A stretch of DNA of 64,000 nt from Bifidobacterium breve (GTDB taxonomy: Bacteria; Actinomycetota; Actinomycetes; Nanopelagicales; Nanopelagicaceae): contig CAMDBB010000004.1 of NCBI GenBank assembly GCA_945889195.1, positions 62,001-126,000 of the forward strand, given 5' to 3'. The translations under genes were made by a program, and so were the position numbers. Shown one piece after another: positions 33,213 to 50,350 of this stretch. Every line of letters begins with the position of its first letter. The first letter of the stretch is position 1. The notes under the pieces were generated by a model. It worked only from the letters and a program-made list of their open reading frames with translations. It did no database searches and had not been told where the DNA came from.

Positions 33213-33665
33213 TTACCTCTGAAATATTGCATCAACCTCAACTGGGCTGTTGAGGGGGAGTGATTTAACTCCGATGGCAGTCCTGGCATGAGAACCAATC
33301 TCTGGACCAAAGACCTCCAGAAATAACTGACTTGCACCGTGAGCGACTAGATGTTGATCCGTGAAATTATCTGCACTAGCTACATAAACTGCGATTCGCG
33401 CCACCTGTTTAATCTTGTTTAGCGATCCCAACTCAGCCTTAAGAGATTTTAAAATGTTGATGGCACATTGACGACCGCACTCTTGGGCAACTTCCAACGA
33501 AACTTGGCTTCCTACTAGGCCAGTAGCCACCAACTTGCCATCACGCATGGCAACTTGCCCAGAGACATAAAAGCTATTCTCAAGGTCTGCAACTGGCTTA
33601 AGCGCCATCGTGGCAGGGTAATTGGCCGTTAGCGCAATGGAATCCAACACTTCATCAGGCGTCAT
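33213..33665 (-). CDS. RidA/YjgF-family protein
   Basis: 150 residues. RidA-like fold with 'SFYVSGQVAMRDGKLVATGLVG' and the C-terminal 'SHARTAIGVKSLPLNSPVEVDAIF' carrying the conserved arginine (R-T) that binds the substrate carboxylate. RidA enzymes hydrolyse 2-imino acids made by PLP enzymes to keto acids plus ammonia. It is 18 bp downstream of the D-threonine-aldolase-like gene, which supports a role in clearing its enamine/imine product. A second RidA-like gene is at 47573. Confidence 0.87.
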   Translation of the reverse strand: MTPDEVLDSIALTANYPATMALKPVADLENSFYVSGQVAMRDGKLVATGLVGSQVSLEVAQECGRQCAINILKSLKAELGSLNKIKQVARIAVYVASADNFTDQHLVAHGASQLFLEVFGPEIGSHARTAIGVKSLPLNSPVEVDAIFQR

Positions 33666-33683: not shown

Positions 33684-34820
33684 TTATCGTGAAGCGCCTG
33701 GAGCGAAGGTGCGCCAGCGATTGATAACTTCACCTTTACTAACTACAACGGATTCGTTGAGGCTTGAGAAGGTTGTGCATACGTGGTTAGGGATTATTTG
33801 AATCTGTTCACCAATATCTAATGAGCTCGGTTTGCCATCACCCATCCATGTGAGCATGCCATGCTCCTCGGATAACCGTTCGATTATCCAACCATTTTTT
33901 CCAATTATCATCCCGTGGCCAGGATATTCGTCACGATGCTCTTTCGCGGGTAGCAGATCGGCGCTCAGGGATTTTGATCCAGCATCTATCACGGCTGTCG
34001 TTGAAGTTGGCCGACTAACTACGGTAGATAAAATTCGGACTGCACAACTTTGGAGGTTAGCGTTTCCAAGGGCAATTTGCCCCAAATCATTAAAGGCAAA
34101 AATCCCAGGTCTGATTTGATTAACTCCTGTGACAGTTGCGGCGACTCTGGCGGAGGCACTTGACCCCATAGAGACACGAGAAATCTCAACTCCAGCGGAA
34201 TTGATCGCTTGGGACGTCCCCACCATCATCTCGGAAACCTTTTTTGCTGCGGCAATCATGGAGACCTTATCTGGCGCGCCATAGACAGTGCCTTCGTGCG
34301 TCATCACTCCAACAACCTTAACTCCTGGAACAGCGTTTATTGTCTGTGCAATCTTTGGTGCATCCGCCGGAAGAACGCCATCTCTGCCTAAGCCCGTATC
34401 GATGATTAGAAGAACAGAGCAAACCTGAGAGTGAGCTGCAAAAACCTCGCCAATTGATTTTGCACCAGCAACGCTATCCACAGCTAAAGTTAAATCAATA
34501 GAGGTTGAAAGAATTCGCGCACGTTCAACCTTGCTTGCGCCAATGACAGGGTAAGCGACAGTGATTTTCTTTACTCCCGCACTGGCAAAGCCTTCGGCTT
34601 CACCTACTTTTGCAACACAGAGGCCATCGCAACCTAGTTCCTGCTGGAGTAATCCAATTTCAGGAGTTCTGTGCGTCTTAGCATGTGGCTGGAGAGATAC
34701 CCCGTTTGCGTGGCAAATTTTCAAAAGTTCGTTGACATTAGCTTTAAGAATATCTATATCTAGAACCAATGAAGGTGTATCGATAAAGCTATTCAATTCG
34801 AATTCACCTGTGGTGAGCAT
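33684..34820 (-). CDS. D-threonine aldolase / D-serine dehydratase-like PLP enzyme
   Basis: 378 residues from the ATG at 34820, which overlaps the IclR stop (TGATG). Fold type III PLP enzyme: Lys48 in 'QPHAKTHRTPEIG' is the Schiff-base lysine of the alanine-racemase-like barrel. The C-terminal beta domain has 'YPGHGMIIG' and 'IIPNHVCTT'; the His and Cys of the latter are the metal site in D-serine dehydratase/D-threonine aldolase. It would act on a D-beta-hydroxy-amino acid, giving glycine plus aldehyde, or a keto acid. Co-transcribed with iclR and ridA. Confidence 0.87.
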   Translation of the reverse strand: MLTTGEFELNSFIDTPSLVLDIDILKANVNELLKICHANGVSLQPHAKTHRTPEIGLLQQELGCDGLCVAKVGEAEGFASAGVKKITVAYPVIGASKVERARILSTSIDLTLAVDSVAGAKSIGEVFAAHSQVCSVLLIIDTGLGRDGVLPADAPKIAQTINAVPGVKVVGVMTHEGTVYGAPDKVSMIAAAKKVSEMMVGTSQAINSAGVEISRVSMGSSASARVAATVTGVNQIRPGIFAFNDLGQIALGNANLQSCAVRILSTVVSRPTSTTAVIDAGSKSLSADLLPAKEHRDEYPGHGMIIGKNGWIIERLSEEHGMLTWMGDGKPSSLDIGEQIQIIPNHVCTTFSSLNESVVVSKGEVINRWRTFAPGASR

Positions 34821-35599
34821 CAAGAATAATTCCTGAGTTCCTCAGAGACTTGTCTAGCCTCATCTTGAACACTCATTCTCATTCTCTCTTTTGTAACTCG
34901 TTTCTCTGCTAAATAACGCTTCGGAACTGTGGAGCTTATGGCGGCAACTACCTTGCCTGTTTTATCAGTAACAGGCGCTGCTACACAGTAGAAGCGCTCG
35001 ACAAGTTCACCGTTGGATTCAGAGTAGCCATTAGTTCTCACTTTACTTACTTCCTCTAGAAGCTCATCGAGACTGCCGATAGTGGCGCTATTGAATTTCT
35101 TGAAGACTAAGTTCTTGAAAATACTCCTGATCTCTTCATCCGAGTATCCGGTCAGAAGAGATTTACCGAGAGCCGTTGCTTGTGCAGGAAGTCGAACCCC
35201 CACTTTTGATGGCAAGTCAAATGAGCGATCAGATTTAATCTGCGCCAGATACAAGGCATCGACACCAGAGAGAACTGCTAAGTGGACCGCAGAGTGGAGA
35301 TCATTCATAAGCTCAGTGATATGACTTTCAGCGACCGAAATGAGCTGGCTACTATTTAAGTATTGTTGAGTTGATTCCCAGGCTTGAATACCTAGCGTAA
35401 ATCTATTTGACCTGGCATCGAATTCAATCCATTTTTCTTGCTGGATAGTTGATAAGAGAACAAAGAGACTGCTCTTAGGAATTTCTAGATACTTTTGAAT
35501 TTCTGTGAAGGTTAATCCATTTTGATAACTTGATAGAAGCTTTAAAATTTGTAAAGTGCGAACAGAGGATTTGACTTCACCTTGTGCCGATTCAGCCAT
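34820..35599 (-). CDS. IclR-family transcriptional regulator
   Basis: 259 residues. N-terminal winged helix at ~11-70 ('TLQILKLLSSYQNGLTFTEIQKYLEIPKSSLFVLLSTI'), and a C-terminal IclR effector domain ('AVHLAVLSGVDALYLAQI', 'LPAQATALGKSLL', 'RFYCVAAPVTDKTGKVVAAIS'). Divergent from the amidohydrolase gene; the palindrome at 35616-35631 lies right between them, 17 bp from this start, so it should autoregulate. The same palindrome is present at two other divergent promoters of the island, so this is the likely island-wide regulator. Ligand unknown. Confidence 0.92.
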   Translation of the reverse strand: MAESAQGEVKSSVRTLQILKLLSSYQNGLTFTEIQKYLEIPKSSLFVLLSTIQQEKWIEFDARSNRFTLGIQAWESTQQYLNSSQLISVAESHITELMNDLHSAVHLAVLSGVDALYLAQIKSDRSFDLPSKVGVRLPAQATALGKSLLTGYSDEEIRSIFKNLVFKKFNSATIGSLDELLEEVSKVRTNGYSESNGELVERFYCVAAPVTDKTGKVVAAISSTVPKRYLAEKRVTKERMRMSVQDEARQVSEELRNYS

Positions 35600-35615
35600 T
35601 TGGTTTGCTCCTCCC

Positions 35616-35631
35616 GTTCACGTATATGAAC
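35616..35631. promoter_or_regulatory. IclR-type operator palindrome A
   Basis: GTTCACGTATATGAAC: arms GTTCA/TGAAC around a 6-bp centre. Its reverse complement differs from site B (38308-38323) at 1 of 16 positions. Located between iclR and the amidohydrolase gene. Confidence 0.75.
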
Positions 35632-35712
35632 AATTCGATTTATCTATGCTAGGTATAGTTCAGCGTCTAGACAAGGGCTATAGTTTGATTTTCTCTGGAA
35701 GGAGTCCTCCTG

Positions 35713-36882
35713 ATGGTTTCGATGGGCTCCGACATTGCCGTGGACCTTCTCTCGGATAGGCTCTTTAATCCCAAGCTGAAGAGTTTTGGTCCTGGCAGAA
35801 TTTCAGTAGAAAATGGTCTCGTCTCCATAATTGCCTCTAAAGGCTCATCTTCAGAGTCAGTAACCAGTAGAAAAACTATAGATTTATCTGGATTACTTGT
35901 GACCCCTGGATTGGTTGATTTCCATACCCACCTATTTCACGGTCAGGACTTGGGAGTTCATGCGGACACCTTGGTAAATCAGGGAGTGACTGCTGCCGTT
36001 GATGCTGGAAGCTCAGGAGCGCATCTATTCCCTGCCTATAAAGAGCTGGTAATCGATAAGTCAAAATTGCGGATTCAATCCTTTCTCAATATCGCAACAA
36101 TTGGGACTACGAGTATTTTGCTTCAAGGTGAACTTATGACACCTGCCTACTCAAACGAGGAGGCGGCAATTGCAATGGCGCAAACATTCCCTGAAGAAAT
36201 TATTGGGATAAAGGTCCGCGCCTCTAAAGATGTGGGTGGCGATTTAGCTGTCGATGGACTGTTGAAGGGAAGATCTGCAGCGACCAAACTTGGTCTGCCC
36301 CTGATGGTTCACCTCGGACCTGCGCCAGCGGATGTTGAATTTATCCTCGATCTTCTAGGTCCTGGCGATATTTTGACCCACGCATACACAGGCTGGGCCG
36401 GCAATACCCTTGTCGCTGACGCAAAACCTCGTCCAGCTTTCATCTCTGCGAAAAAGCGGGGGGTCTTATTCGATATCGGCCATGGGATGGGCGGCTTTGA
36501 TTCAACTGTGGCGAAGGTGCTGATAGATCATGATTTCTATCCAGACACGATTAGCACGGACGTGCATACATATTCCAAGGAGAAGGTACTTGGACTTCCA
36601 GAGGTGCTCTCAAAGTTTGTGGCGCTAGGGATGGAGCTCTCTGAAGTACTAGTCCGTGCCACCTCAGACCCTGGGCAATTCGGAAGATTTAAAGGGGTAG
36701 GCGTTGGCGTAATTGAAGTAGGTGCACAAGCAGATATTGCAGCTTTTGAATATTCTGAAGGAGAACATCAATTTAGCGATTGCCATGGCCATAGTTTTAA
36801 AGGAGATATGCGCCTGATTCCGGTGTTTACGATGATAAATGGCGAAGTTCTCTACGATCGAGATGGTCGGGCTGGCAGATGA
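35713..36882 (+). CDS. Amidohydrolase/deacetylase-family metallohydrolase
   Basis: 389 residues, ATG with AAGGAG eight bases upstream. 'PGLVDFHTHLFHGQDLG' carries the H-x-H metal ligands, 'GIKVRASK' has the bridging Lys, then 'LPLMVHLG', 'DILTHAYTG' and the Asp in 'TISTDVHTY'. The composition 'GVTAAVDAGSSGA' and the DVHTY end match the group that holds EF_0837/Atu3266-like enzymes, which cleave acetyl or acyl groups from D-hydroxy/amino acids. Such genes often neighbour SelA-like PLP genes; one is present at 42618. Likely removes an acyl group from the imported compound. Confidence 0.85.
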   Translation: MVSMGSDIAVDLLSDRLFNPKLKSFGPGRISVENGLVSIIASKGSSSESVTSRKTIDLSGLLVTPGLVDFHTHLFHGQDLGVHADTLVNQGVTAAVDAGSSGAHLFPAYKELVIDKSKLRIQSFLNIATIGTTSILLQGELMTPAYSNEEAAIAMAQTFPEEIIGIKVRASKDVGGDLAVDGLLKGRSAATKLGLPLMVHLGPAPADVEFILDLLGPGDILTHAYTGWAGNTLVADAKPRPAFISAKKRGVLFDIGHGMGGFDSTVAKVLIDHDFYPDTISTDVHTYSKEKVLGLPEVLSKFVALGMELSEVLVRATSDPGQFGRFKGVGVGVIEVGAQADIAAFEYSEGEHQFSDCHGHSFKGDMRLIPVFTMINGEVLYDRDGRAGR

Positions 36883-36887
36883 GTAGT

Positions 36888-37901
36888 TTACTTAATACTT
36901 TTTAATATCTCATCTGAGTAAGCAAAAATGGCTGGTGCTCCACCTGTGTGCCAAAAAAGAGTTCTTTTTCCATCGGCTGGGAGATTCTTCAAGCTGGCTG
37001 CCGCTTTTGAAGTGTAGACAGGGTCCAAGATCACGCCCTCATATCTTGCAAAATCAACTAGCGCAGAGAGACTTTCTTTGGTGGTCTTTGAATATCCTTC
37101 ACCCACATAGGTAAAGTCTAGATTGATATCTGAAACATCAACTGCACCAAAATCAATTTTTAGTAAAGCACAGATTTCCTTCATTGATTCTAGAACGGTG
37201 GCCTCAATTGGATATTCATTTGATAACGGCGCAACTCCGACCACTTCTACCTCTTTATAACCAAGCAACTTCAAACCCAATAAAACCCCAATAAATGTAG
37301 CGCCAACTGCTGGCATGACGATTCTTTGTGGGAACTCATCTTCGGTAAGTTGTTCGACTAGCTCGAGAGTTGCTTTTAGGTATCCTAAGCTTCCTAGAAT
37401 TTCAGATTTTGGGTAAGTAATCAGATATGGCCTTCGCCCAAGCGCCTCTAGAGATTCACTCAATTTCTTCTTCTGCTCTTCGTGAGCGCTGCCCAGTTTG
37501 CCCTCAAAATAAGTGATATTTGCGCCCAGAAATTGTGAGACTAAGTGCGAACCAGTGTTCTTCTTTTGATTGTAATGATCACTCAGTACTAGATAGCAAT
37601 CAAGATCATGCATGGCACAGGCAGCTGATACCTGGCGAGCATAATTTGACTGCAGAGCCCCACCGTGAACGATGCAATCTGCACCCTGCTTAATAGCTTC
37701 GCCAAGTAGGAACTCGAGTTGTCTAGATTTATTGCCACCAAAGGCGGGGCCAATCAGATCATCTCGCTTTACATATAAATCAAAACCCAACCCCCATTTT
37801 GATTTTAAATTGTCGAGCTTCTGCACCGGCGAAGGGCCTTTACATAAGGGCAACTGTTCAAATCGAGACAGGTACTCCTTGAGTAACCCTGCTGAAATCA
37901 T
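36888..37901 (-). CDS. D-cysteine desulfhydrase / ACC deaminase-family PLP enzyme
   Basis: 337 residues. Fold type II PLP protein: 'LYVKRDDLIGPAFGGNKSRQLEFLL' (in two blocks; Schiff-base K58), 'VHGGALQSNYARQVSAAC', 'VMPAVGATFIG', and 'TLFWHTGGAPAIFAYSDEI'. This is the DcyD/1-aminocyclopropane-1-carboxylate deaminase group, which produces a 2-oxo acid plus ammonia from D-cysteine, other D-amino acids, or ACC. Its start abuts the stop of the mutarotase-like gene, so both are driven from the site-B promoter region. Exact substrate unclear. Confidence 0.88.
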   Translation of the reverse strand: MISAGLLKEYLSRFEQLPLCKGPSPVQKLDNLKSKWGLGFDLYVKRDDLIGPAFGGNKSRQLEFLLGEAIKQGADCIVHGGALQSNYARQVSAACAMHDLDCYLVLSDHYNQKKNTGSHLVSQFLGANITYFEGKLGSAHEEQKKKLSESLEALGRRPYLITYPKSEILGSLGYLKATLELVEQLTEDEFPQRIVMPAVGATFIGVLLGLKLLGYKEVEVVGVAPLSNEYPIEATVLESMKEICALLKIDFGAVDVSDINLDFTYVGEGYSKTTKESLSALVDFARYEGVILDPVYTSKAAASLKNLPADGKRTLFWHTGGAPAIFAYSDEILKSIK

Positions 37902-38222
37902 CTAGGTACCTTCAAAGCGAAAGACCCTGGGTAGACGCTTGAGTAATGGCAATTCCTTATCGACCTCTCGATATTTACAAATAGAGATAATCTCCTGCGT
38001 CCAACTTGGACTTACATCCTCGTGCAGATACTCATGAAGCCTAGATTCACTTTCATAGTTGAAAACACCAAATATATGATCGCCATCTCGGAAGATTGAA
38101 AAGTTACTCATTCCGGCCAGTTTCAGCTGCTCAGCTATCTCGTGCGGCACAGGGGAGTGCAGGTCGATGTACCTTTGCCCCATTTCAGGCTCTAGAACTA
38201 GATGAAATGCCGCTTGGTTCAT
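37902..38222 (-). CDS. L-rhamnose mutarotase-like (DUF718) protein
   Basis: 106 residues, full length for the family. 'MGQRYIDLHSPVPHEIAEQLKLAGMSNFSIFRDGDHIFGVFNYE' shows (over several blocks) the RhaM signature: an early Tyr (RYIDLHS), 'SIFRDG' and 'IFGVFNYE'. RhaM interconverts sugar anomers. Its presence implies that the imported compound, or an intermediate, has a reducing-sugar ring. Sits directly upstream of the D-cysteine-desulfhydrase-like gene and divergent from the transporter. Confidence 0.85.
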   Translation of the reverse strand: MNQAAFHLVLEPEMGQRYIDLHSPVPHEIAEQLKLAGMSNFSIFRDGDHIFGVFNYESESRLHEYLHEDVSPSWTQEIISICKYREVDKELPLLKRLPRVFRFEGT

Positions 38223-38307
38223 AAAAACCTCCCGAAAATGGTTGGCTAAAAGTTATCAGAATTGCTTGACACGTGGGGGTTCTCGGAGGAAAGTAAATAG
38301 AAAGTTT

Positions 38308-38323
38308 GTTCATATACATGAAC
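38308..38323. promoter_or_regulatory. IclR-type operator palindrome B
   Basis: GTTCATATACATGAAC, with the symmetry continuing outwards to TTTGTTCA...TGAACAAA (38305-38326). It lies 22 bp before the substrate-binding gene and downstream of a TTGACA hexamer at 38266, a place fit for repression of the transporter operon. Confidence 0.8.
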
Positions 38324-38345
38324 AAATAAGAAAGAGGAGTTCTAA

Positions 38346-39689
38346 ATGGAGAGTACAGAAAATGGTTCAAGTTTAAATTTGAACATGGATCGCCGTACAT
38401 TGCTCAAGTCTATGGGTGTTGCAGGTCTAGCTTCTGCTCCACTTTTAAATAGTGGAATGATGTCAGCTGCTGAAGCGGCTGGGCAGACGATCAATTTCAC
38501 AGCTTGGGAGTATCAACCAGACACAATTAAGTCACTAGTGGCTAATTGGTCTAAGCAAACTAAGAACAAAGTCAATATCAGTTTTATTCCTAACGTTGGT
38601 TACACAGCTGGAATTCAGGCTCGTCAACGTGGTGGAAAACCAGCAGATGTGTTTTATAACTTTGCTTATAACTCACAAAAGTTTGTAAATCAAAAGTGGG
38701 CTGCAGACCTTCGCGGACTTCCGGGAGCAGAGAAGATGGTTGCAGACATGTTCCCATCAGCTCGTAGCCGATTTGTAGCTGAAAACGGAGCAATTGTAAG
38801 TGCTCCATATTTCTCAGCTGTGCATATGCTGCAATACAACAAGAAGATGGTTGCTGCTGCAGGATTTAACAGCACTCCAAATTCACTTCAAGAGACATAC
38901 GATCAATGTAAGAAAATCAAGGCAAACGGTGTTGAGTCCCCATATGTTGCGTATTGGGTAAAGGACTTCGTCGAAGAGTATCTACATGTGTACCTACTCG
39001 CTGGCAACGTTCAACCGTTTGATAAAAAGGGTGATCCAATCTTCATGGATGACCCAAAGACACTTGATGTACTCAACTGGTGGCAGGCCATGTACAAGGA
39101 TGGAATGACTCCTAAGTCAGTTCTCACTGATGATCCAGGCAAGCACACAAGCTCGATGGCAAATGGACAGGCCGCTTTCTATGCTCTGCACCATTACTTC
39201 CTTCGCGATATTGTCGAAAGCAAGGGTCCTTCCTCAGGTGATATCTCACAGGCCAAGATTGTTGGCACTGGCGGTAAAACTCTACAAATGGGCGAAGTCA
39301 TCCAGATGGGTGGAAAAGTCACAGGAGCTAAGAAGGCTGCAGCTTGGGACTTCATGAAGACCTATGGATATAAGGATAAAAGCGGGAAATTCACGACTTT
39401 CCAGAAGTGGGCAGCCTCAGGTGCGCTTTGCGCTCCATACCCAGGCTTCTTCACAGATCCAAAGGTCATAGCGGCGTTTCCGGATTACATGGACTTGTCT
39501 CTCATTAAAGACACATTCCAGAATGCTTCAGATATCGTCCCAGCTCGTACATCGCCTTGGTACCAGGGCTTCCAAGCACAGTGTGGAACTATCATCCACG
39601 ACTTGCTACTTGGAAACTCAAATGCTCGTGCAACAGCAAATGCCCTTGCAATTGCATGCAAGACCGCTAAATCAGGCAGTGGTCTTTAA
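38346..39689 (+). CDS. ABC transporter sugar-type substrate-binding protein, Tat-exported
   Basis: 447 residues; AAGAGGAG lies nine bases upstream. The N-terminus 'NMDRRTLLKSMGVAGLASAPLL' is a Tat signal (D-R-R-x-L-L-K). The mature protein is a family-1 extracellular solute-binding protein ('INFTAWEYQPDTIKSLVANW', 'KPADVFYNFAYNSQKF', 'DVLNWWQAMYKDG', 'GQAAFYALHHYF'), of the group serving di- and oligosaccharides or glycosides. It begins an operon with two permeases and three enzymes, under operator B. Confidence 0.92.
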   Translation: MESTENGSSLNLNMDRRTLLKSMGVAGLASAPLLNSGMMSAAEAAGQTINFTAWEYQPDTIKSLVANWSKQTKNKVNISFIPNVGYTAGIQARQRGGKPADVFYNFAYNSQKFVNQKWAADLRGLPGAEKMVADMFPSARSRFVAENGAIVSAPYFSAVHMLQYNKKMVAAAGFNSTPNSLQETYDQCKKIKANGVESPYVAYWVKDFVEEYLHVYLLAGNVQPFDKKGDPIFMDDPKTLDVLNWWQAMYKDGMTPKSVLTDDPGKHTSSMANGQAAFYALHHYFLRDIVESKGPSSGDISQAKIVGTGGKTLQMGEVIQMGGKVTGAKKAAAWDFMKTYGYKDKSGKFTTFQKWAASGALCAPYPGFFTDPKVIAAFPDYMDLSLIKDTFQNASDIVPARTSPWYQGFQAQCGTIIHDLLLGNSNARATANALAIACKTAKSGSGL

Positions 39690-39716
39690 GAAGTAAACGA
39701 GGATATGAGTAGTTAG

Positions 39717-40637
39717 GTGATTCTCAAGTCACATCGTGCAAGAAGAGAGGAGTCAAAGCGTTCGGTTTCTAACGGACGCTTTGGCTTCTATCTTGCCCTT
39801 CCTTCAATTCTTGTCCTCTTAGCTTTATTGGCAATCCCTGCCGTACTTACAATCTTTCAGAGCTTCTTTATCGTTCCCCCAGATGGCGTGGGGATAGGAG
39901 AATTCACAAAGGTAGATAATTACCTCTTTCTCTTCAAAAATGAGATTTTTTGGGCCACGAGTCTTAGATCAATATGGTTTGCTCTAATTTTTATCGTGGG
40001 CTCCACAGTTATTGGAATGGCTGCGGCACTTCTTTTAAATGAGAAATTCGTTGGCCGGATGGTTTTAAGAGGTCTTTTGGTCTTGCCATGGGCATGCCCA
40101 TGGCTCATTGTAGGAATTATCTGGAAATGGTTTGCTGATGGAAATATAGGACTTCTCAATGGAGTTTTGATGCGCCTGAACCTAATCTCTGAGTACAAGG
40201 ACTTCCTCAGTGACCCTAGTTGGGCCATTTGGATGACTGCCATTGCAGCAACATGGCGCCAATCTTGTCTCGTGGCCCTTCTACTCTTGGCCGGCTTGCA
40301 AACTATGCCACGTGAAATTTGGGATGCCGCTAGCGTTGATGGCGCTGGCATCTTTCAGCGCTTTCGCCACATCACCTTGCCTTGGTTGCGCCCAGCTCTA
40401 ACGGTCGTCACCGTATTAAATGTTATCTACGGACTTATGCAATTCGACGTCATCTTTGCGATGACTCAAGGTGGCCCAGGATCTTCAACGACGCTACTCA
40501 GTTTCCTGATCTATCGACAGTTCTTCATCTTCACAAATTTTGGAATTGGATCTGCTCTAGCTGTGGCGCTAGCCCTTATCGCCCTAGTCGGTGGACTCAT
40601 TGCGGTAAAAACCCTTTATCGAAAGATTGAGGTGTAG
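39717..40637 (+). CDS. ABC sugar transporter permease (MalF/UgpA-like)
   Basis: 306 residues, GTG start. Six hydrophobic helices; the EAA loop reads 'REIWDAASVDGAGIFQRFRHITLPWLRP', the consensus for carbohydrate-uptake type-1 permeases. The C-terminal stretch 'MTQGGPGSSTTLLSFLIYRQFF' is also typical of the MalF group. It pairs with the permease encoded three bases downstream. Confidence 0.93.
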   Translation: MILKSHRARREESKRSVSNGRFGFYLALPSILVLLALLAIPAVLTIFQSFFIVPPDGVGIGEFTKVDNYLFLFKNEIFWATSLRSIWFALIFIVGSTVIGMAAALLLNEKFVGRMVLRGLLVLPWACPWLIVGIIWKWFADGNIGLLNGVLMRLNLISEYKDFLSDPSWAIWMTAIAATWRQSCLVALLLLAGLQTMPREIWDAASVDGAGIFQRFRHITLPWLRPALTVVTVLNVIYGLMQFDVIFAMTQGGPGSSTTLLSFLIYRQFFIFTNFGIGSALAVALALIALVGGLIAVKTLYRKIEV

Positions 40638-40640
40638 AAA

Positions 40641-41564
40641 TTGAGTACCATGATAAAGCGGAGGAGATTTACTCGGCGCCGAGTAACACGAAATACTATG
40701 ATTTACTCCGCAGCTGCTGTTTTTGTTGTATGGATTCTCTTCCCAATTTGGTACACCTTAAGTAGCTCTTTCACAAAGCCAAGCGAGATAGGCGCCCGTC
40801 CGACACCATTTTGGCCAGCTAGCCCAACGCTGGATAACTATCGATTAGTTCTTGGAATTCCGACAAAAGATCAGGAATGTATTCCGGGAATCGATATTGT
40901 GAACTGCGGAGCAGCCGCAAGTAATGTGTCTGTAAACAAACTGGTAGACACCATGTTTAACAGTTTCATAGTCGGTGCTGCGGTGGTTTTCTTTACCTTG
41001 CTCATATCCACAATCGCTGCCTACTCGCTGTCACGATATCGATTTGCCGGCTCAGTGTTTTTTCTAAACTTTACGATACTTTCCAGAATCGTTCCTGGAT
41101 TAGTTCTAGTAGCACCAATTTTTATATTTTTACGAGTTCTTAACCTTCTTAATACTCCGTGGGCTTTGATTATCAGTTACACCTCATTCACCTTGCCATT
41201 AGCAATAATCATATTAAAGAACTATTTTGATCAGATATCGATTGATTTAGAAGAGGCCGCTGCACTGGATGGTGCAGGCAGACTACAGACCCTAAAGCTA
41301 GTGATTTTGCCAGTGGCCGTTCCTGGCTTAATTGCAACGGGAGTACTTGTTTTCCTCGAGTCCTGGAGCGAGTTCTTCTTCGCCCTGGTACTTACTGATT
41401 CCTATACGGTTCCTGCTTTATTGGCGGGCTTTCTATCAATGCAGACTTTCAACTGGACTTTACTATCAGCTGCAACAATCATTGCGATAATTCCACCAGT
41501 ACTCTTAGTTATGATCTTCCAGAAGTATATTGTCACGGCGCTGGCATCCGGAACTGGAAAGTGA
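40641..41564 (+). CDS. ABC sugar transporter permease (MalG/UgpE-like)
   Basis: 307 residues, TTG start at 40641. EAA loop 'IDLEEAAALDGAGRLQTLKLVILPVAVPG', with a periplasmic insert of ~45 residues carrying two cysteines (KDQECIPGIDIVNCGA), which is unusual and may form a disulfide. No ATP-binding gene follows: the next gene is an oxidoreductase overlapping at TGATG. The importer must borrow an ATPase of MsmX/UgpC type encoded elsewhere. Confidence 0.92.
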   Translation: MSTMIKRRRFTRRRVTRNTMIYSAAAVFVVWILFPIWYTLSSSFTKPSEIGARPTPFWPASPTLDNYRLVLGIPTKDQECIPGIDIVNCGAAASNVSVNKLVDTMFNSFIVGAAVVFFTLLISTIAAYSLSRYRFAGSVFFLNFTILSRIVPGLVLVAPIFIFLRVLNLLNTPWALIISYTSFTLPLAIIILKNYFDQISIDLEEAAALDGAGRLQTLKLVILPVAVPGLIATGVLVFLESWSEFFFALVLTDSYTVPALLAGFLSMQTFNWTLLSAATIIAIIPPVLLVMIFQKYIVTALASGTGK

Positions 41565-42616
41565 TGAGCCCCAAGATTCGAGTTGGTGTTCTGAGCGCAG
41601 GAGCATGGTCAGTCGCAGTTCATATACCTGAGTTAAAGAAACACCCAGATGTAGAACTGGTAGTAGTCACTAATCAGAGTATCGAGATGGCAAATAAGAT
41701 CAAAGAAATGTTTGGCTTCGAAAGTGCTCTTGATTCCTGGGAGAAGGCTCTGGAGTATAAATTGGATGCGGTGATTGTAAGTAGCCCACCAATTGCGCAT
41801 GAAGCGATGGTTATTGCGGCCTTGAATGCAGGTGCTCATGTTCTGTGCGAGAAGCCATTCGCACTTAATGGAGATTCGGCTTCTAGGATGATACTTGCCT
41901 CGAAGAAGAGTAATCGGGCTCTGCTCATTGGATATGGCTGGCCTTATACCGATATTTTCAGCCGGGTTCGCGATTTGATCAGAGAGGGCCTCATCGGAAA
42001 AGTTGAATTTGCTAACCTAGGAATCACATGTGGGATCCGTGAGATTCTGCAAGGACAATCTTCAGACCATTCAACTTCGACAGGTTTTTTGAGCGAAAAG
42101 CAGACATATCTCGACCCAAAAATTGCCGGTGGTGGCGCCATTGGTACGACAATGAGTCATTCTCTCGGTCTGCTGATTCATATTCTTGGAGATTCATTTG
42201 ATTGGGTAGCTAGTTCTAGCTTCCCAGCAGGAGAAGCTCTCGATTATCACGAATCTGTCTCTGGACAGATGAAAAATGGAGCCGCCGTAAATATGTACTG
42301 TGTCAGCACCTTTGGCAGCGCACCACATGTGACATGGAGATTTGAAGCATTTGGAGATAAAGGTGATTTACGTGTGGATCCAACCAATCGTCAGATTACC
42401 TTCCATGGCGCTATTGGGGATTCGTGGGTGCAAGATTTTGATGAAGAAGGGGTTACATATAAGTCATATATGCCAACCGCTTTGCTCTTAGAACGTGCGC
42501 GAGGAAATGAAATTCCTGATGGGTGCGATAGCTCTATTGGCCAGTTAGTTGTCAATGCAACTGACGGAATCTATGAGAGCTGGCGAACGGGCTCTCGTAG
42601 CAAGGTAGCGCCGTAA
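41564..42616 (+). CDS. Gfo/Idh/MocA-family oxidoreductase
   Basis: 350 residues from the ATG at 41564 that overlaps the permease stop (a GTG at 41561 is possible). N-terminal Rossmann motif 'VGVLSAGAWSVAVHIPEL' with weakened glycines, the EKP motif in 'GAHVLCEKPFALN', and the GG segment 'PKIAGGGAIGTTMSHSLGLLIHI' with the catalytic His. Such enzymes oxidise or reduce sugars and sugar acids at a hydroxyl with NAD(P). Part of the transporter operon, so it likely acts early on the imported compound. Confidence 0.9.
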   Translation: MSPKIRVGVLSAGAWSVAVHIPELKKHPDVELVVVTNQSIEMANKIKEMFGFESALDSWEKALEYKLDAVIVSSPPIAHEAMVIAALNAGAHVLCEKPFALNGDSASRMILASKKSNRALLIGYGWPYTDIFSRVRDLIREGLIGKVEFANLGITCGIREILQGQSSDHSTSTGFLSEKQTYLDPKIAGGGAIGTTMSHSLGLLIHILGDSFDWVASSSFPAGEALDYHESVSGQMKNGAAVNMYCVSTFGSAPHVTWRFEAFGDKGDLRVDPTNRQITFHGAIGDSWVQDFDEEGVTYKSYMPTALLLERARGNEIPDGCDSSIGQLVVNATDGIYESWRTGSRSKVAP

Positions 42617-42617
42617 T

Positions 42618-43787
42618 ATGTCTATTTTTCCTCTACTGGGAATTGAGCCAATTATTAATGGGGTCGGGCCAGCTACCCGACTTGGTGGTCTGTCATTAAG
42701 CGAAAATGTATGGAGCGCCATGAAAGAGGCGAATCAGAGTAGTTATCGAATGGATGAGCTTCATCTGCATGCGGGCGCTCTAATTGCAAAGATGATAGGT
42801 GCGCCTGCAAGTCTCGTGACAGCTGGGGCCTCTGCATCTTTGACGCTAAGTGCTGCAGCTGCGATTGCAGGTTTTGACCGTCAGATGCTAATTGACCTGC
42901 CTTTCCCGAAGAGCAAAAAGGTGGAAATTTTAGTTCAACGAGTGCATCAAGATCCTTATGATCACGCCTTAACTGCAGCTGGTGCGCAGATTAGAGCTTT
43001 CGGTGGCGAGAATGGCTCAACGGTTGATCAACTTCATGCTGCCCTTAATTCAAATGTCTGTGCCTTGCTCTGGCGAGAAAGCGAAGGAGATAGCGCTCTA
43101 GATTTGGCGACCTGTTCGAAAATTGCCCATGAAAATGGCATTCCAGTAATTGTCGATGGCGCCCTATTCGTTCCTCCAGCCAGTCGTTTGCAGGATTATC
43201 TCAAGCAAGGCGCAGATTTCGTAGCCATCAGCGGCGGTAAAAGTTTTAGAGGCCCTCATACCAGTGGCTTATTAGTAGCTAGCCCGGCAAATATCAAGAT
43301 TGCGCTCCTGCATCATTTAGATTTAGATGAGCGAAGCGCAACATGGAGTTATGAAATTGGCGATGGTCAATTCGCGGACCTTCCTTCAAATGGAATTGGT
43401 AGAGCTATGAAAGTTGGCAGAGAGCAAATATTTGGGCTAATCGCCGCGATTCAGGATTATCTACTTGAACCTTCTTATCAAGTTGGTGATGCAGAAGTTG
43501 TTGAGTGTAAAAAAGAATTAGATCAAGGGGACATGGTGCAATCTGAGATGAGATTTTACTCGCCCTTAAACGTGACAAATTTGCATATAGCTTCGCCTAA
43601 ACCTCTCTCCGCTGATCAGTTTTACAGCCATCTTGCTTCTGGTGCTCCGAGGATAATTCTTGGCCAGGAGATGTCTGATAAAGGATTCCTGACGCTAAAT
43701 CCTATGGCGCTTCAAAAAGGTGAGGGTTCTCAAATCGGAAGAAGAATTAATGAGATCGCGAGACAGGGGCAGGGTAAAAAAATATGA
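42618..43787 (+). CDS. SelA-like PLP enzyme (DgaE-type lyase group)
   Basis: 389 residues. Fold type I, with 'LGIEPIINGVGPATRLGGLSLSENV' at the start and the Schiff-base Lys208 in 'AISGGKSFRGPHTSGLL'. It is a SelA relative that lacks the extended N-terminal tRNA-binding domain, as in D-glucosaminate-6-phosphate ammonia lyase and uncharacterised partners of deacetylase-family amidohydrolases. A beta-elimination or deamination on a D-amino(sugar) acid is the likely reaction. Overlaps the next gene by ATGA. Confidence 0.85.
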   Translation: MSIFPLLGIEPIINGVGPATRLGGLSLSENVWSAMKEANQSSYRMDELHLHAGALIAKMIGAPASLVTAGASASLTLSAAAAIAGFDRQMLIDLPFPKSKKVEILVQRVHQDPYDHALTAAGAQIRAFGGENGSTVDQLHAALNSNVCALLWRESEGDSALDLATCSKIAHENGIPVIVDGALFVPPASRLQDYLKQGADFVAISGGKSFRGPHTSGLLVASPANIKIALLHHLDLDERSATWSYEIGDGQFADLPSNGIGRAMKVGREQIFGLIAAIQDYLLEPSYQVGDAEVVECKKELDQGDMVQSEMRFYSPLNVTNLHIASPKPLSADQFYSHLASGAPRIILGQEMSDKGFLTLNPMALQKGEGSQIGRRINEIARQGQGKKI

Positions 43788-44722
43788 CAAGCACAAAAGG
43801 AAAGATTCAGACGGTAAACGGTCTCATTGATCCATCCGCTATGGGCTTTACACATAGCCATGAACACGTCTTATGGGATTACTTTAAAATGATCAAAAGC
43901 TACGACGTAATCTTTGATGATGAGCAGGTTGCTCAGTATGAAGTCCAATTATTTAAAGATGCAGGTGGCGGCTCACTTATCGATGCTAGCTCGAGTGGGA
44001 TAGGGACTAATCCAGAGTCATTGCGACGTATCTCAAAAAATACTGGAGTTAATATAGTTCTCGGCTGCGGTTGGTACCGTGAGATTGTTTATGAAGATGC
44101 GGTTTTTCGCCAAACCTCCAATCAACTCGCGCAGAGAATGGTTAGCGAAATCCGTGAAGGTTTTGCTGGAACCGATGTGAAGCCAGGATTTATTGGTGAA
44201 ATTGGCACCGAGCGGGGTTCCATCTCACCTGCGGAGGAGCGCGTCTTTCTCGCTGCCGCAAAGGCAAGCCTAGAAACCGGTGTCACAATTTTGACCCACA
44301 CAACACATTTTGGCGAGTTGGCTCTCGAACAGATTGACCTTCTGGAGATTGCAGGCGTTAGCCCAGACCGAATCATAATTAGCCATCTAGGCGATCGCGA
44401 AGATACCTCGAGTCTGCTGCGTATTGCAGATCGCGGAGTTTATTGCAGCATCGACAATATTGGGTATCAAGGCGATGGTTATCCGCAAGATGACGTTAGA
44501 TTAAATAGCGCTAGAACTCTTATTGACCATGGCCATCTAGATCGAATCGTTTTGGGAACAGATATTGGCTCACGTTCGGCCCTGCGCTCTTACGGTGGTA
44601 GAGGTTTTCCTTGGCTTCTTGAGTCGTTTGTTCCAGCGATGAAGAGCGCCGGATTCACAGCGCAGGAGATTGAAGCCATTACTGTCACCAATATTGCTAG
44701 GGCTATGACAATAAGTAAGTAA
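43784..44722 (+). CDS. Phosphotriesterase-family metallohydrolase
   Basis: 312 residues. Binuclear metal-site residues are in place: 'GFTHSHEHVLWDY' (H26-x-H28), 'GEIGTERG' (bridging Glu), 'ILTHTTHFGE', 'IISHLGDRED' and the last Asp in 'VLGTDIGSRS'. In this superfamily (COG1735), homologues hydrolyse lactones, phosphorylated sugar lactones or N-acyl amino acids more often than organophosphates. In this operon, hydrolysis of a lactone or amide is the best guess. Last gene of the operon, convergent with the DapA-like gene. Confidence 0.9.
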   Translation: MTSTKGKIQTVNGLIDPSAMGFTHSHEHVLWDYFKMIKSYDVIFDDEQVAQYEVQLFKDAGGGSLIDASSSGIGTNPESLRRISKNTGVNIVLGCGWYREIVYEDAVFRQTSNQLAQRMVSEIREGFAGTDVKPGFIGEIGTERGSISPAEERVFLAAAKASLETGVTILTHTTHFGELALEQIDLLEIAGVSPDRIIISHLGDREDTSSLLRIADRGVYCSIDNIGYQGDGYPQDDVRLNSARTLIDHGHLDRIVLGTDIGSRSALRSYGGRGFPWLLESFVPAMKSAGFTAQEIEAITVTNIARAMTISK

Positions 44723-44728
44723 TTAGAG

Positions 44729-45637
44729 CTATCTAGCTATCTCTTCAAGATAAGCAAAGATCCGCTCAGCCTCGGTCTTGGTCTCAAGATCAAAAGTGAA
44801 ACTTACGGGCTCAACTTTATTGGTATTGATGAAAACACCCTGCTTATGAAGTAAGTGCTTTTCAATAGCTATGTAGGCATCAAGGACTGGCATCAGATTG
44901 ACCATGTTAGCTATGGCTCCATTAATCAGATTCACTCGCTTCCAATCTCCAGCAACGAGAGAATCCCAGAGTTTTACCATGGCCCAACTGAGGTCGGCAC
45001 CCGGCATTGTGCCGATAACTCCTCTTGTGAAGCTATCAACTAGGTGTGCGCCTCCTGTCCCCTCGAAGATGCGCGCTTTCCCACCAGTTGCATCGCGAAG
45101 TTCAGAAAGTCTTTGGCCAATTGGTACCGCTTCGGGTTTGAAGTAGATTCGATTGCTATATGAATCATGCAGCCTAGATAGCACGCTGACGTTAATTGAG
45201 TAGCCTACGTAGCCGCTAGCATCTTGAACAACAATGGGAATCGAAGTCTTCTCGAATACTTGCGCAAAATAATTATAGATTTCGTCATCCGTGAGCTTAG
45301 AGGCGATCGGGGGATTAACCATTACCGCTGTCGCGCCAGAATCTTGAGCGTGGATGACGAGAGAGATAGTCGCCTCCGCAGTCTCTTGACCGCAGCTCAC
45401 GATGGAATTCATTTTGAACTCTTGAGCAAAGAGAGATACCGATTCAGTCAGTTCCCGACGTTCATCTAGATTCATTCTAAGAATTTCAGAGACCATGCCC
45501 GTAGCAACAGTCTGAACTCCTTGCTGGCCTACCCACCCAATCTCACGTCTCAGAGTTGCCTTATCGAGTTTGCGGTTCTCATCTAATGGCGTACTGAGGA
45601 CCGGTACTACACCCTTGATTTCTATGAAATTCGACAT
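44729..45637 (-). CDS. Dihydrodipicolinate synthase-family (DapA-like) lyase/aldolase
   Basis: 302 residues from the ATG at 45637, chosen because the longer frame to 45736 would run through operator C. TIM-barrel with Schiff-base Lys167 in 'IYFKPEAVPIG'. The usual YNxP tyrosine block is replaced by 'PIVVQDASGYVG', and the GTTGE motif by 'VATGMVSE', so it is not true DapA but a sibling such as a KDG-type aldolase, N-acetylneuraminate-lyase-like or dehydratase. Expected to yield or use pyruvate. Transcribed from the operator-C region. Confidence 0.87.
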   Translation of the reverse strand: MSNFIEIKGVVPVLSTPLDENRKLDKATLRREIGWVGQQGVQTVATGMVSEILRMNLDERRELTESVSLFAQEFKMNSIVSCGQETAEATISLVIHAQDSGATAVMVNPPIASKLTDDEIYNYFAQVFEKTSIPIVVQDASGYVGYSINVSVLSRLHDSYSNRIYFKPEAVPIGQRLSELRDATGGKARIFEGTGGAHLVDSFTRGVIGTMPGADLSWAMVKLWDSLVAGDWKRVNLINGAIANMVNLMPVLDAYIAIEKHLLHKQGVFINTNKVEPVSFTFDLETKTEAERIFAYLEEIAR

Positions 45638-45730
45638 TGATACTCTCTCAATTAGGAACAACCTAAGTCGTAGTGATTTGAGAATTCTACTAGATTTCTG
45701 ATACCGATTAGGCGTCAGTTCTGACAATTT

Positions 45731-45746
45731 GTTCACGTATGTGAAA
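45731..45746. promoter_or_regulatory. IclR-type operator palindrome C
   Basis: GTTCACGTATGTGAAA matches site A at 14 of 16 positions. It lies in the 195-bp gap between the divergent DapA-like gene (start 45637) and the amidohydrolase gene (start 45833), so it can control both. Confidence 0.7.
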
Positions 45747-45832: not shown

Positions 45833-46666
45833 ATGATCATTGATGTACATACGCACTTCATGACTTGCGAGTGCTGGGGAAATGAGTGGAGCGATAACTG
45901 GGAACCAGTCTACGGTGCGCCATTTCCAGAAGTGACTCCAGAGAAATACGACCTAGCTATGCAGGATGTAGACGTAGCAATTGTTTTCGGTATCCGGGCA
46001 ACTTTTGCAAACGTTGCTACACCGAACGAAAAGATTGCGAAATTTTGTAAAGAGACTAAGACTAAAACTATTGGATTTATGGCGCTGGATCCATCGGATG
46101 CTGATGCTTTGGAACAAATGAAAGATGGAATTAGACTCGGGCTAAAAGGTATAAAGCTTTATCCAGTATTAGCCCATTTTGATCCTCGTGACACCAAATA
46201 CGATTCATTTTTTTTCGAGGCGCAGAAGAATGAGTTAGTGATTCTATGGCATGTTGGTGCCACTCCAAGTCCTCATGGAGATCTCTCGATAAGTCACCCA
46301 CTCATAATTGACGATGTCGCAAGACGTTTTCCCGGATTGACGCAAATAATGGCTCATCTTGGTCATCCTTGGCAGCGAGAAACTATGGCGGTTATTCGTA
46401 AGAATAGGCGTGTATTTGCAGATATTTCCGCAAGTTGGGCTAGGCCATTTGATGGGTACCACGCTCTAGTTCGTGCTCAGGAGTGGTCAGTCACAAATAA
46501 AATTCTTTTTGGCTCTGATTTTCCTCTGTGGACGCCAAAAGTTGCTATTGAAGGCCTATATGAAATTGCAAATTTGCGCTCAGGGAATCTTCCATATGTT
46601 CGTAAGGAAACGATTGATCAGATAGTAAATCAAGACGCTCTATCAATGCTCAGGCTATCTGCCTAG
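45833..46666 (+). CDS. Amidohydrolase 2-family TIM-barrel hydrolase/decarboxylase
   Basis: 277 residues. Starts with 'IIDVHTHFM' (metal-binding H-x-H), then 'LVILWHVGATPSP', 'TQIMAHLGHPWQRE' and the terminal Asp in 'ILFGSDFPLW', the pattern of the amidohydrolase-2 group (COG2159), which holds decarboxylases, hydrolases and lactonases. First gene of the second plus-strand operon of the island, under operator C. Confidence 0.88.
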   Translation: MIIDVHTHFMTCECWGNEWSDNWEPVYGAPFPEVTPEKYDLAMQDVDVAIVFGIRATFANVATPNEKIAKFCKETKTKTIGFMALDPSDADALEQMKDGIRLGLKGIKLYPVLAHFDPRDTKYDSFFFEAQKNELVILWHVGATPSPHGDLSISHPLIIDDVARRFPGLTQIMAHLGHPWQRETMAVIRKNRRVFADISASWARPFDGYHALVRAQEWSVTNKILFGSDFPLWTPKVAIEGLYEIANLRSGNLPYVRKETIDQIVNQDALSMLRLSA

Positions 46667-46688: not shown

Positions 46689-47582
46689 ATGAAGGAATTG
46701 TTTGCGCATGGCAGTGAGGTAGAAAAGGTATTCACTGGCGCCATTTTTTCTGAGGGGCCTGCATCTGACCGTCAAGGCAATGTACTTTTTTCTGATTGCT
46801 CTGAGAATATTATTTATAGCTTCAATGAAATGACTCTTGAAACTTCGGTATGGAGCAATGATTCAGGACATGCAAACGGCATGAATTTCGATGCTCAAGG
46901 CAGGCTGGTTGTCTGTTGCGATGGTAAGAATTACCCATCTAATCCTAAGGGAGGGGCACATGCGGTCCGTAGATACGAAAAGAATGGATCAATAACGACT
47001 CTTGCAGATAGTTTCGATGGAAAAAAGTTAAATGGACCGAATGATCTATGTTTTGACTCAGAGGGAAGAATCTATTTCACGGATCCTCGATATGGGGACA
47101 CTTCCGATCTTGAACAAGACAAGATGGCGGTTTATCGAATTGACCTTGATGGGACTTTGAGCAGAGTTATTGAAGATTTAGAAACCCCAAACGGGATTTT
47201 GATTTCTAGAGATAACAAGTCTCTTTTCATAGTCGATCACAACCCCGAACCAGGCGGAGCTCGCCAACTCGTAAAGTACAAAGGTACCTCAACTGGGTCT
47301 TGGGTTAAGGATAAAGTCCTACTAGATTTTGGTGCTGGTTACGGCATGGATGGAATGGTTTTGGATGAGGAAGAAAACATCTATGTCACTGGAGGCTCAG
47401 GAACATCAGCTGGAGTTCACATAGTCTCCTCAGAAGGAGATTTAAGAGGTTTCATTCCAACGCCTGAGATCCCGGGCAACTGTACTTTCAGTGGGGCAAA
47501 CCTGGATTATCTGTATATATGCGCGACCTCATCACTTTATAGGATAAAAATGAATGTTAAGGGGTTGCTCACATGGTCCTAG
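46689..47582 (+). CDS. SMP-30/gluconolactonase-family lactonase
   Basis: 297 residues. Six-bladed propeller with 'GAIFSEGPASDRQGNVLFSDC' (metal-ligand Glu in SEGP), 'KLNGPNDLCFDSEGRIYFTDPRYG' (Asn-Asp) and 'GYGMDGMVLDEEENIYVTGG' (Asp ligand), typical of SMP-30/gluconolactonases. It would open a sugar-derived lactone made by one of the island's dehydrogenases. Overlaps the next gene by 10 bp. Confidence 0.9.
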   Translation: MKELFAHGSEVEKVFTGAIFSEGPASDRQGNVLFSDCSENIIYSFNEMTLETSVWSNDSGHANGMNFDAQGRLVVCCDGKNYPSNPKGGAHAVRRYEKNGSITTLADSFDGKKLNGPNDLCFDSEGRIYFTDPRYGDTSDLEQDKMAVYRIDLDGTLSRVIEDLETPNGILISRDNKSLFIVDHNPEPGGARQLVKYKGTSTGSWVKDKVLLDFGAGYGMDGMVLDEEENIYVTGGSGTSAGVHIVSSEGDLRGFIPTPEIPGNCTFSGANLDYLYICATSSLYRIKMNVKGLLTWS

Positions 47583-47968
47583 AAATCAGATCAAAGCTGG
47601 AACATTTCACACTCGATGAGTTGTCAAAGCCAGTCGGGGCATACTCTCATGGCGTCATTGCTAATGGGTTCTTGTTCACGTGTGGTCTTGGACCAATGAG
47701 CCCAGAGACGGGGAAAATTAGTGGAGATGAGATAGTCAGCCAAACTCGACAAGTATTTAAAAATTTAGAGTTGATACTTAATTCGAAGAAGGTCGATTTT
47801 TCACGCGTGGTCAAGCTAACTGCATATTTACAGAATCTCGAAAGTGATTTCAAAGCCTACAATTCTGTTTGCAGCGAGTTTCTCTCGACTCCATATCCAG
47901 CAAGAACTACAACTGGAGCCACGTTGCCTGGAATATTGATTGAAATCGATTGCATAGTCGCGCTATAA
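47573..47968 (+). CDS. RidA/YjgF-family protein
   Basis: 131 residues. 'SKPVGAYSHGVIANGFLFTCGLGPMSPETG' and the C-terminal 'YPARTTTGATLPGILIEIDCIVAL' carry the RidA arginine and Glu of the imine-hydrolysing type. This is the second RidA in the island and is only distantly like the first. Overlaps the lactonase gene and ends 5 bp before the D-aminoacylase gene. Confidence 0.9.
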   Translation: MVLEIRSKLEHFTLDELSKPVGAYSHGVIANGFLFTCGLGPMSPETGKISGDEIVSQTRQVFKNLELILNSKKVDFSRVVKLTAYLQNLESDFKAYNSVCSEFLSTPYPARTTTGATLPGILIEIDCIVAL

Positions 47969-47973
47969 CTCCT

Positions 47974-49602: not shown

Positions 49603-50350
49603 TCTAGGCAATTTTGATGGACAGGTGGTGCTAGTTGTTGGTGCAGCTAGTGGGATAGGTCGAGCAGTTGCCCGGTTAATCTCATCTCGAGGCGGCACCG
49701 TGGTGATTTCTGATTTAGATAAGACAGGACTGGCATCTCTAAAGGAAGAATTGTCACTTAATGATAATCAAGTAAAAGATGTCAATTTGGGGGATAAATC
49801 CAGCGTTAGTAATCTAATAGTCTCGTTAATCTCTGATCATTCACAAATCGATGCTCTCATAAATACAGCGGGGATAGTTGGTCCAACAAATACAAAGCTG
49901 GAAGATGTTGACTGGTCAGCTTTTGAAAAAACTCTGTCAATCAATCTATTTGGAGCTATTTGGTTGACGCAAGCAGTTGTCCCTTTTATGAAAGATCGAA
50001 AATATGGTCGCATCGCTCATGTAGCCTCCATCGCAGGTAAAGAAGGAAATCCTGGAATGCATGCCTACAACACATCTAAGGCTGGGCTGATTGGATTTGT
50101 TAAGGGCGCTAGTAAAGAGATTGCTGCAGATGGAATTACCATCAATTCGCTTGCCCCTGCGGTAATTAGAACTCCTATGAATGCAGATACAAATGAGGAG
50201 ACCCTCAAGTACATGATTGGTCGTATTCCCATGGGCAGAGTTGGAGAGCCAGAGGAGGTCGCAGAGCTATTGGCTTTTATGGCATCGAGTGCATGTTCAT
50301 TTACGACTGGCTTTACCTTTGATGCATCAGGAGGTAGGGCAACTTACTGA
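49592..50350 (+). CDS. Short-chain dehydrogenase/reductase (SDR)
   Basis: 252 residues. Cofactor motif 'VVGAASGIGRAVA' with Asp at the end of beta-2 ('VVISDLDKTG'), which favours NAD(H); 'INTAGIVG'; catalytic 'HVASIAGKEGNPGMHAYNTSK' in parts (S...YxxxK). Last gene of the second plus-strand operon. It could oxidise a sugar to the lactone that the SMP-30 homologue hydrolyses. Confidence 0.9.
   Translation: MARNLGNFDGQVVLVVGAASGIGRAVARLISSRGGTVVISDLDKTGLASLKEELSLNDNQVKDVNLGDKSSVSNLIVSLISDHSQIDALINTAGIVGPTNTKLEDVDWSAFEKTLSINLFGAIWLTQAVVPFMKDRKYGRIAHVASIAGKEGNPGMHAYNTSKAGLIGFVKGASKEIAADGITINSLAPAVIRTPMNADTNEETLKYMIGRIPMGRVGEPEEVAELLAFMASSACSFTTGFTFDASGGRATY

Follow-up and report, generated by a model that had tools for sequence, protein, structure and literature searches.

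IclR-type regulators and the studied locus

For the IclR family of transcriptional regulators a group-1 operator consensus GKTYCRYW3-4RYGRAMC has been described, together with an even-length NGT-12-ACN subgroup in which sugar and sugar-acid genes are frequent, COG1028 dehydrogenases are overrepresented and COG3254 is named among the frequently associated families (PMC8222616). Most IclR-family sites are located 20-80 nucleotides (nt) before genes, the commonest position being −22 (PMC8222616). Here, an IclR-family gene and three near-identical palindromes are described, which lie in a block of 18 genes within a 64,000-nt stretch of DNA, referred to as the window (positions 62,001 to 126,000 of contig CAMDBB010000004.1, assembly GCA_945889195.1; Bifidobacterium breve, GTDB family Nanopelagicaceae). 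The palindromes are very probably the operators of this IclR (34820-35599), which would thereby control the whole block of six predicted transcription units, its own operon included.

By visual inspection, the group-1 form was recognized in 9/9 sites from the genome of the window and two relatives, with GTTCRY in one arm and RYGAA in the other in a 16-bp frame; the central four bases match W just partly and the orthologues of site C end in AAA. Like the even-length subgroup, the sites have inverted GTYCR-type half-sites in a 16-bp frame, whereas the subgroup consensus carries A/T beside the centre and the sites of the block Y/R (PMC8222616). The operator of NpdR, an actinobacterial IclR member from Rhodococcus opacus, is GTTCMRYATMRTGAWS, which is likewise 16 bp long with GTTC ... 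TGA arms (Table 1 of PMC8222616). NpdR governs the use of 2,4,6-trinitrophenol, unlike the block (PMC8222616), and is compared here by its operator.

Two further regulators were compared for their mode of control. GylR of Streptomyces is an IclR autorepressor; at its own gene the footprinted operator immediately follows the −10, as found here, but operator length, operator sequence and the glycerol pathway are different (PMC9732521). BhcR is an activator of its cluster for which autorepression is proposed; glyoxylate is described as an effector of IclR, AllR and BhcR, and pyruvate also of IclR and BhcR (PMC11323563). Among the titles listed in literature searches, no description of the present gene cluster was found.

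Palindromes in the divergent promoter regions

The block (33213-50350) contains three divergent gaps, and one 16-bp palindrome was found in each of them (operators A, B and C; Table 1). The shared form GTTCAY-N4-RTGAAC is the putative binding sequence of IclR. Operators A and B are both intergenic. Site C overlaps the mechanically called GTG start (45736) of the DHDPS-like open reading frame (ORF). Since this N-terminal extension is broken by in-frame stops in both relatives and the conserved protein begins at ATG 45637, site C is considered to be intergenic as well.

Allowing for up to three mismatches to site A, 5 rows at 4 places were found in the window compared to 0.32 expected, and 0/100 shuffles reached 5. 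The fourth place (41618) was rejected as an operator; it lies within the Gfo/Idh/MocA coding sequence and is altered in both relatives. To avoid circularity, a matrix was made with the relatives' six sites alone. With this matrix, A, B and C scored 24.2, 23.6 and 22.5 and ranked 1-3 in the 64 kb, followed by a place with 11.6. With leave-one-gap-out matrices all three sites were still on top (next place 12.0-12.6). The highest matrix score in 300 shuffles was 21.1; 4 shuffles reached 20 and none reached the 22.5 of the lowest operator. The signal resides in the whole 16-mer together with its placement and conservation, not in the loose frame. A first-pass annotation of the window had located the three palindromes at the positions of Table 1 in all three divergent promoter gaps, had seen none elsewhere in the window and had noted that site A, reversed, differs from site B by one base. 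All of this was borne out, for site C after correction of the gene start.

The exact pattern GTTCANRTAYNTGAAM occurs at three places in the whole genome of 1,433,085 bases, namely A, B and C. With one mismatch, five further places were found in this genome. Four of them (C1:29574, C1:78626, C2:188317 and C2:217848) were rejected as operators, all being located inside ORFs. The fifth, ATTCATATATGTGAAA at C7:24646-24661, is found 72 nt before an acetate--CoA ligase gene and seemed attractive because deacetylation releases acetate. It was not counted as a member, as it is absent at that place in the relatives: the matrix score is 18.3 in the genome of the window, whereas the best score is 12.6 in relative G126, at another position, and −3.0 in relative G142. 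The genome-wide search that the first-pass annotation had proposed as a check therefore added no operator, and the many palindromes at unrelated genes that it had named as counter-evidence did not appear among the exact matches.

Conservation in related genomes

An IclR with at least 85% identity was identified in 2/250 other genomes searched in the order, G142 and G126 (87% and 85%). As far as seen, the gene order of the block is the same in both. In G126, the contig breaks off within RidA1, and the SDR that closes the block was not found within the 20,000 of 21,821 contig bases covered. Comparative footprinting, also suggested in the first-pass annotation, recovered the palindrome at all three gaps of both relatives. 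On either strand, gaps A, B and C contain GTTCGCATATGTGAAC, GTTCACGTATATGAAC and GTTCACGTATGTGAAA in G142 and GTTCATGGATATGAAC, GTTCATATACGTGAAC and GTTCATATATGTGAAA in G126.

Across the three genomes, 11/16 (A), 15/16 (B) and 14/16 (C) site columns are identical, and elsewhere in the gaps 45/96 (A), 71/107 (B) and 53/138 (C). In site A, 8/9 arm columns are kept and the centre is variable. The palindromes could be chance or neutral sequences kept through the kinship of the three genomes, as the overall conservation of gap B and the fact that a bare GTTCA-N6-TGAAC frame is not rare would allow. This explanation is extremely improbable: the site in gap C stands out from its surroundings, the centre in gap A has changed, yet the arms remain, and one sequence common to three separate gaps goes beyond what the 300 shuffles gave.

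Both HTH_IclR (PF09339) and IclR_C (PF01614) were found above the curated cut-offs in the protein encoded next to operator A, which places it in the IclR family; operator A ends 16 nt before its ATG, in agreement with the adjacency described in the first-pass annotation. For the named subfamilies, the protein is under the cut-off of every NCBIfam model matched (bits/cut-off: BhcR, the best, 148/350; KdgR 133.5/275; PcaR/PcaU 123.8/284.75; IclR 103.1/380; AllR 99.4/406). The three orthologues share the DNA-binding stretch IPKSSLFVLLSTIQQEKWIEF without any difference, as would be required for near-identical sites.

The motif and the block occur together in 3/135 genomes of the genus. The exact pattern GTTCAYRTAYRTGAAM was found in 3/135 as well, all of them carriers of the block, at 7 places that are every one in block gaps. 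The Ami2 marker, at 87% identity or more, was likewise confined to these three among 296 genomes of the order. The relaxed palindrome GTTCRYRTAYRYGAAC is matched by 9/296 genomes of the order, three of which are the carriers. The six non-carrier genomes contain it once each, five times inside a mechanically called ORF and once, in G085, in an intergenic position. There, GTTCGCATATGCGAAC is located about 138 nt upstream of an IclR ORF with 28% identity, between this gene and the next ORF.

The regulon interpretation of the first-pass annotation is thus supported by the genome scan, the relatives, the 3/135 co-occurrence, the identical DNA-binding stretch and the group-1 form of the motif.

Evaluation of the proposed regulon and mode of control

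Several observations count against an IclR regulon of this kind. Allowing for one mismatch, the frame GTTCA-N6-TGAAC by itself shows no enrichment (4 window places vs 2.53 expected; 21/100 shuffles reach 4). At up to two mismatches, the counts of 46 and 45 in the whole genome are close to the 38 and 33 of the reversed-pattern controls. Site A is less conserved than the adjoining promoter, with 11/98 gap-A windows (site included) being equal or better. The relatives contain several weaker one-mismatch places. Outside the block and a pair of sites on contig C74 of G126 (see below), two were found in G142 and five in G126; the one viewed in its gene context, C74:25254, coincides with an ORF start. 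Reversed-pattern controls yielded 0 and 0 in the genome of the window, 3 and 0 in G142 and 3 and 5 in G126, so that the places in G126 are near background. In addition, G142 and G126 are only 78-80% complete and their regulons may be larger.

Among 22 loci of other IclR homologues (two from genomes with two homologues each), 21 have no site scoring >13. As only one locus gave such a site, the operator matrix was kept at the nine sites from three genomes.

A search for IclR_C genes in the genome of the window found two, the block gene and one at C1:223323 adjoining leuC, a position occupied by NdgR/LtbR in other actinobacteria. This second gene, and the finding that motif forms can be common to related IclR proteins (PMC8222616), would fit a different regulator, either the leuC-linked paralogue or a member of another family, binding the palindromes next to a coincidental IclR. 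The exact motif is confined to the 3/135 genus genomes that have this IclR and the block, and operator A lies in the iclR leader, both of which make such a regulator very unlikely. A leuC-linked regulator is also expected to be widespread, which counts against it.

Putative promoter elements were searched for by eye. Operator A was found 14 nt past the −10 of the predicted iclR promoter and 16 nt short of the ATG, in the same arrangement in all three genomes. Operator B is located downstream of the conserved TTGACA of the ABC (ATP-binding cassette) operon, directly before the ribosome-binding site; the −10 match of this operon is poor. For the deacetylase and Ami2 promoters no −35/−10 pair conserved in the three genomes could be recognized. 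With centres at −24.5 and −30.5, A and B are near the −22 of IclR-family sites (PMC8222616). For 4/6 gene starts the operators are centred at about −90 to −100, which is outside the −20 to −80 zone; activation is possible at these four units.

This latter position would also be expected if IclR acted as an activator, or in a dual manner, at the catabolic promoters and repressed solely itself; for BhcR, which was introduced above, activation is described and autorepression proposed (PMC11323563). Operator B nevertheless occupies a repressor position at the largest unit, the ABC operon, and an activator of this type is therefore considered to be unlikely. Because the operator lies just downstream of predicted promoter elements at two promoters, IclR is most likely an autoregulated repressor. 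An IclR dimer (or tetramer) would occupy the GTTCAY-N4-RTGAAC sequence of every divergent gap and in this way control all six units of 33213-50350, including its own operon. At iclR and the ABC operon, it would hinder transcription at initiation or during early elongation. Release would occur as a pathway intermediate builds up, and this would probably induce an oxidative route by which N-acyl amino sugars or related acids are used in non-phosphorylated form. KdgR is a sensor of a sugar acid, and as a guess, the effector might be a sugar acid such as 2-keto-3-deoxygluconate (KDG) here, too.

Further sites in other genomes

On contig C74 of G126, two more strong sites, GTTCATAGACATGAAC (21.1) and GTTCACATACATGAAT (19.9), were found 126 bp apart at stretch positions 7024 and 7150. 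They precede an ABC operon of a solute-binding protein (SBP), two permeases, an ATPase and an SDR. If the SBP is read at its longest, its initial codons overlap with GTTCATAGACATGAAC, and the start of the SBP was taken further in. In seven other genomes searched, including G142 and the genome of the window, no counterpart of this SBP was found at E 1e-30. The regulon in G126 probably extends to this transporter and, as no counterpart was found in the other two carriers, seems to have gained a member there.

In G212, GTTCACCTATCTGAAC (score 17.0) is located just before an SDR gene in the wider stretch around an IclR homologue. Within positions 6358-10943 of this stretch, the IclR (34-35% identity) is found near ABC transporter genes and an ORF judged by eye to be RhaM-like. 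The locus is possibly a related regulon.

Gene block and transcription units

At both ends, the 18 genes of the block face convergent neighbours. An acetoacetate--CoA ligase gene terminates at 33206 on one side, and a pyruvate phosphate dikinase gene at 50401 on the other. The inner junctions 36882/36888 and 44722/44729 are convergent as well. From gene spacing, six transcription units on the three divergent gaps are proposed (Table 1). Units 1-3 would consist of iclR with the pyridoxal phosphate (PLP) enzyme and RidA1, the deacetylase, and the RhaM-like gene with the PLP lyase; units 4-6 of the ABC operon with Gfo, DgaE-like and phosphotriesterase-family (PTE) genes, the DHDPS-like gene, and the Ami2-SGL-RidA2-deacylase-SDR genes. 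COG3254 is of the RhaM type. The first-pass annotation had united four gene sets in one regulon; the sites, their conservation and co-occurrence agree with one regulon, but the number of units is six.

Table 1. Coordinates (window positions) of operators, predicted promoter elements and genes of the block.
Feature	Position	Strand	Remarks
Operator A GTTCACGTATATGAAC	35616..35631	.	centre −24.5 from IclR ATG, −89.5 from deacetylase ATG
Operator B GTTCATATACATGAAC	38308..38323	.	centre −30.5 from SBP ATG, −93.5 from RhaM-like ATG
Operator C GTTCACGTATGTGAAA	45731..45746	.	centre −101.5 from DHDPS-like ATG 45637, −94.5 from Ami2
Predicted iclR promoter TTGTNN-N17-TARYAT	35646..35674	-	−35 35674-35669, −10 35651-35646; putative, by eye
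Predicted −35 TTGACA of ABC operon	38266..38271	+	identical in three genomes; putative, by eye
RidA/YjgF family protein 1 (RidA1)	33213..33665	-	PF14588, PF01042
Fold-type III PLP enzyme (D-threonine aldolase / D-serine dehydratase type)	33684..34823	-	PF01168, PF14031; PDB relatives
IclR-family regulator, 259 aa	34820..35599	-	PF01614 E=1.3e-38, PF09339 E=1.2e-9
Amidohydrolase/deacetylase (PRK09237/EF_0837-like)	35713..36882	+	304.4 bits, cut-off 371
PLP beta-family deaminase/lyase (D-cysteine desulfhydrase / D-cysteate lyase-like)	36888..37901	-	PF00291; NCBIfam all below cut-offs
RhaM-like mutarotase family protein	37902..38222	-	PF05336
ABC sugar-type solute-binding protein (SBP)	38346..39689	+	PF01547
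Two ABC permeases	39717-40637, 40641-41564	+	PF00528
Gfo/Idh/MocA dehydrogenase	41561..42616	+	PF01408, PF22725
DgaE/SelA-like PLP ammonia lyase	42618..43787	+	TIGR01437 149.9 bits (cut-off 385.3); PDB 7lc0 E=6.6e-25
Phosphotriesterase-family (PTE) lactonase/hydrolase	43784..44722	+	PF02126
DHDPS/KDG-aldolase family protein	44729..45637	-	PF00701; start set at ATG 45637
Amidohydro_2 family hydrolase (Ami2)	45833..46666	+	PF04909
SMP-30/gluconolactonase family (SGL)	46689..47582	+	PF08450
RidA family protein 2 (RidA2)	47573..47968	+	PF01042
N-acyl-D-amino-acid deacylase-like amidohydrolase	47950..49602	+	PF07969; PDB D-aminoacylase E=1.2e-74, PpOngB E=2.1e-58
SDR dehydrogenase	49592..50350	+	PF13561

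In G142, a pyruvate phosphate dikinase gene adjoins the RidA1 end of the block at stretch positions 1815-1840, and in the window the SDR end (50350-50401). As opposite ends face this neighbour, the block was either inverted or separately inserted beside the same gene. In three genomes of another genus, acetoacetate--CoA ligase (61-64%), RidA1 (59-62%) and a homologue of Ami2 (about 39-42%) are found together. Part of the neighbourhood (31257-33665) may be older than the block. For the DgaE-like protein, a phylum-wide sample of 396 genomes contained one relative besides the window (40% over 229 residues). Elsewhere in the window, the start of the ORF 26562-27818 reads, by eye, like a DNA cytosine methyltransferase.

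Predicted pathway and comparison with the ong cluster

Most NCBIfam matches of the block enzymes are below the curated cut-offs, and exact reactions are not claimed. Judged by protein families, import would be performed by the SBP and the two permeases, with no ATPase encoded in the block. Candidates for dehydrogenation are Gfo and SDR, for lactone opening PTE and SGL, for N-deacylation the deacetylase and the D-aminoacylase-like protein and for aldol cleavage the DHDPS-type protein. Deamination could be carried out by the DgaE-like protein, the fold-type III PLP enzyme, the PALP-type lyase (PF00291) and the two Rid proteins. This set of enzymes suggests N-acyl amino sugars or sugar acids as putative substrates, which would be used oxidatively and in non-phosphorylated form.

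The ong cluster for the oxidised chitin sugar GlcNAc1A has a D-aminoacylase-type deacetylase, a fold-type III PLP deaminase, RidA and a local regulator in common with the block (PMC9537276, PMC12017989). The counterparts of OngC and OngD were found at superfamily level only (PF01168/PF14031 and PF01042/PF14588). The regulator OngR is of the MurR/RpiR type, whereas an IclR is encoded in the block, and the sugar kinase KdgK of the ong cluster contrasts with a DHDPS-type aldolase and additional dehydrogenases and lactonases (PMC9537276, PMC12017989). No kinase family match was found among the 18 block genes, to which the search was confined, at E 0.001.

The Cys/His/His metal site of OngB is not retained in the deacylase (47950-49602). 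In the D-aminoacylase motif GNCGIS, the Cys is regarded as the ligand; in the window and both relatives, Asp takes its place (GQDGLS), whereas the two His of the metal site are retained throughout. Where D-aminoacylase has AGST, the sequence here is AGSS, with Ser as in OngB (Ser292), and the column of OngB Gln298 falls at the end of the alignment. An identity with the ong cluster was rejected on the basis of the Asp in place of the metal-ligand Cys, the different regulator and the lack of a kinase counterpart in the block.

A more detailed model is put forward tentatively and is rather doubtful. One IclR, sensing a sugar-acid intermediate, might turn on two oxidative routes in parallel, both non-phosphorylating and both acting on N-acyl amino sugars, which meet at the KDG-type aldolase. 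The first route would comprise the Gfo dehydrogenase, the PTE lactonase, the deacetylase and the DgaE-like lyase, and the second the SDR, the gluconolactonase, the D-aminoacylase-like deacylase and a Rid protein. This would be an undescribed pathway in small-genome Actinomycetota, present as a self-regulated cassette in few members of the genus.

Biological meaning of the probable regulon

With respect to gene regulation, the locus is an ordinary, self-contained example of a familiar kind of regulon, for which the observation and its interpretation as an IclR regulon are supported. It represents a rare cassette, found by the Ami2 marker in three genomes of the order, that carries its own regulator and operators. 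Through the shared operators, 18 genes of uncertain function would be joined into one regulated unit, and their common pathway becomes testable via the ligand that releases the regulator.

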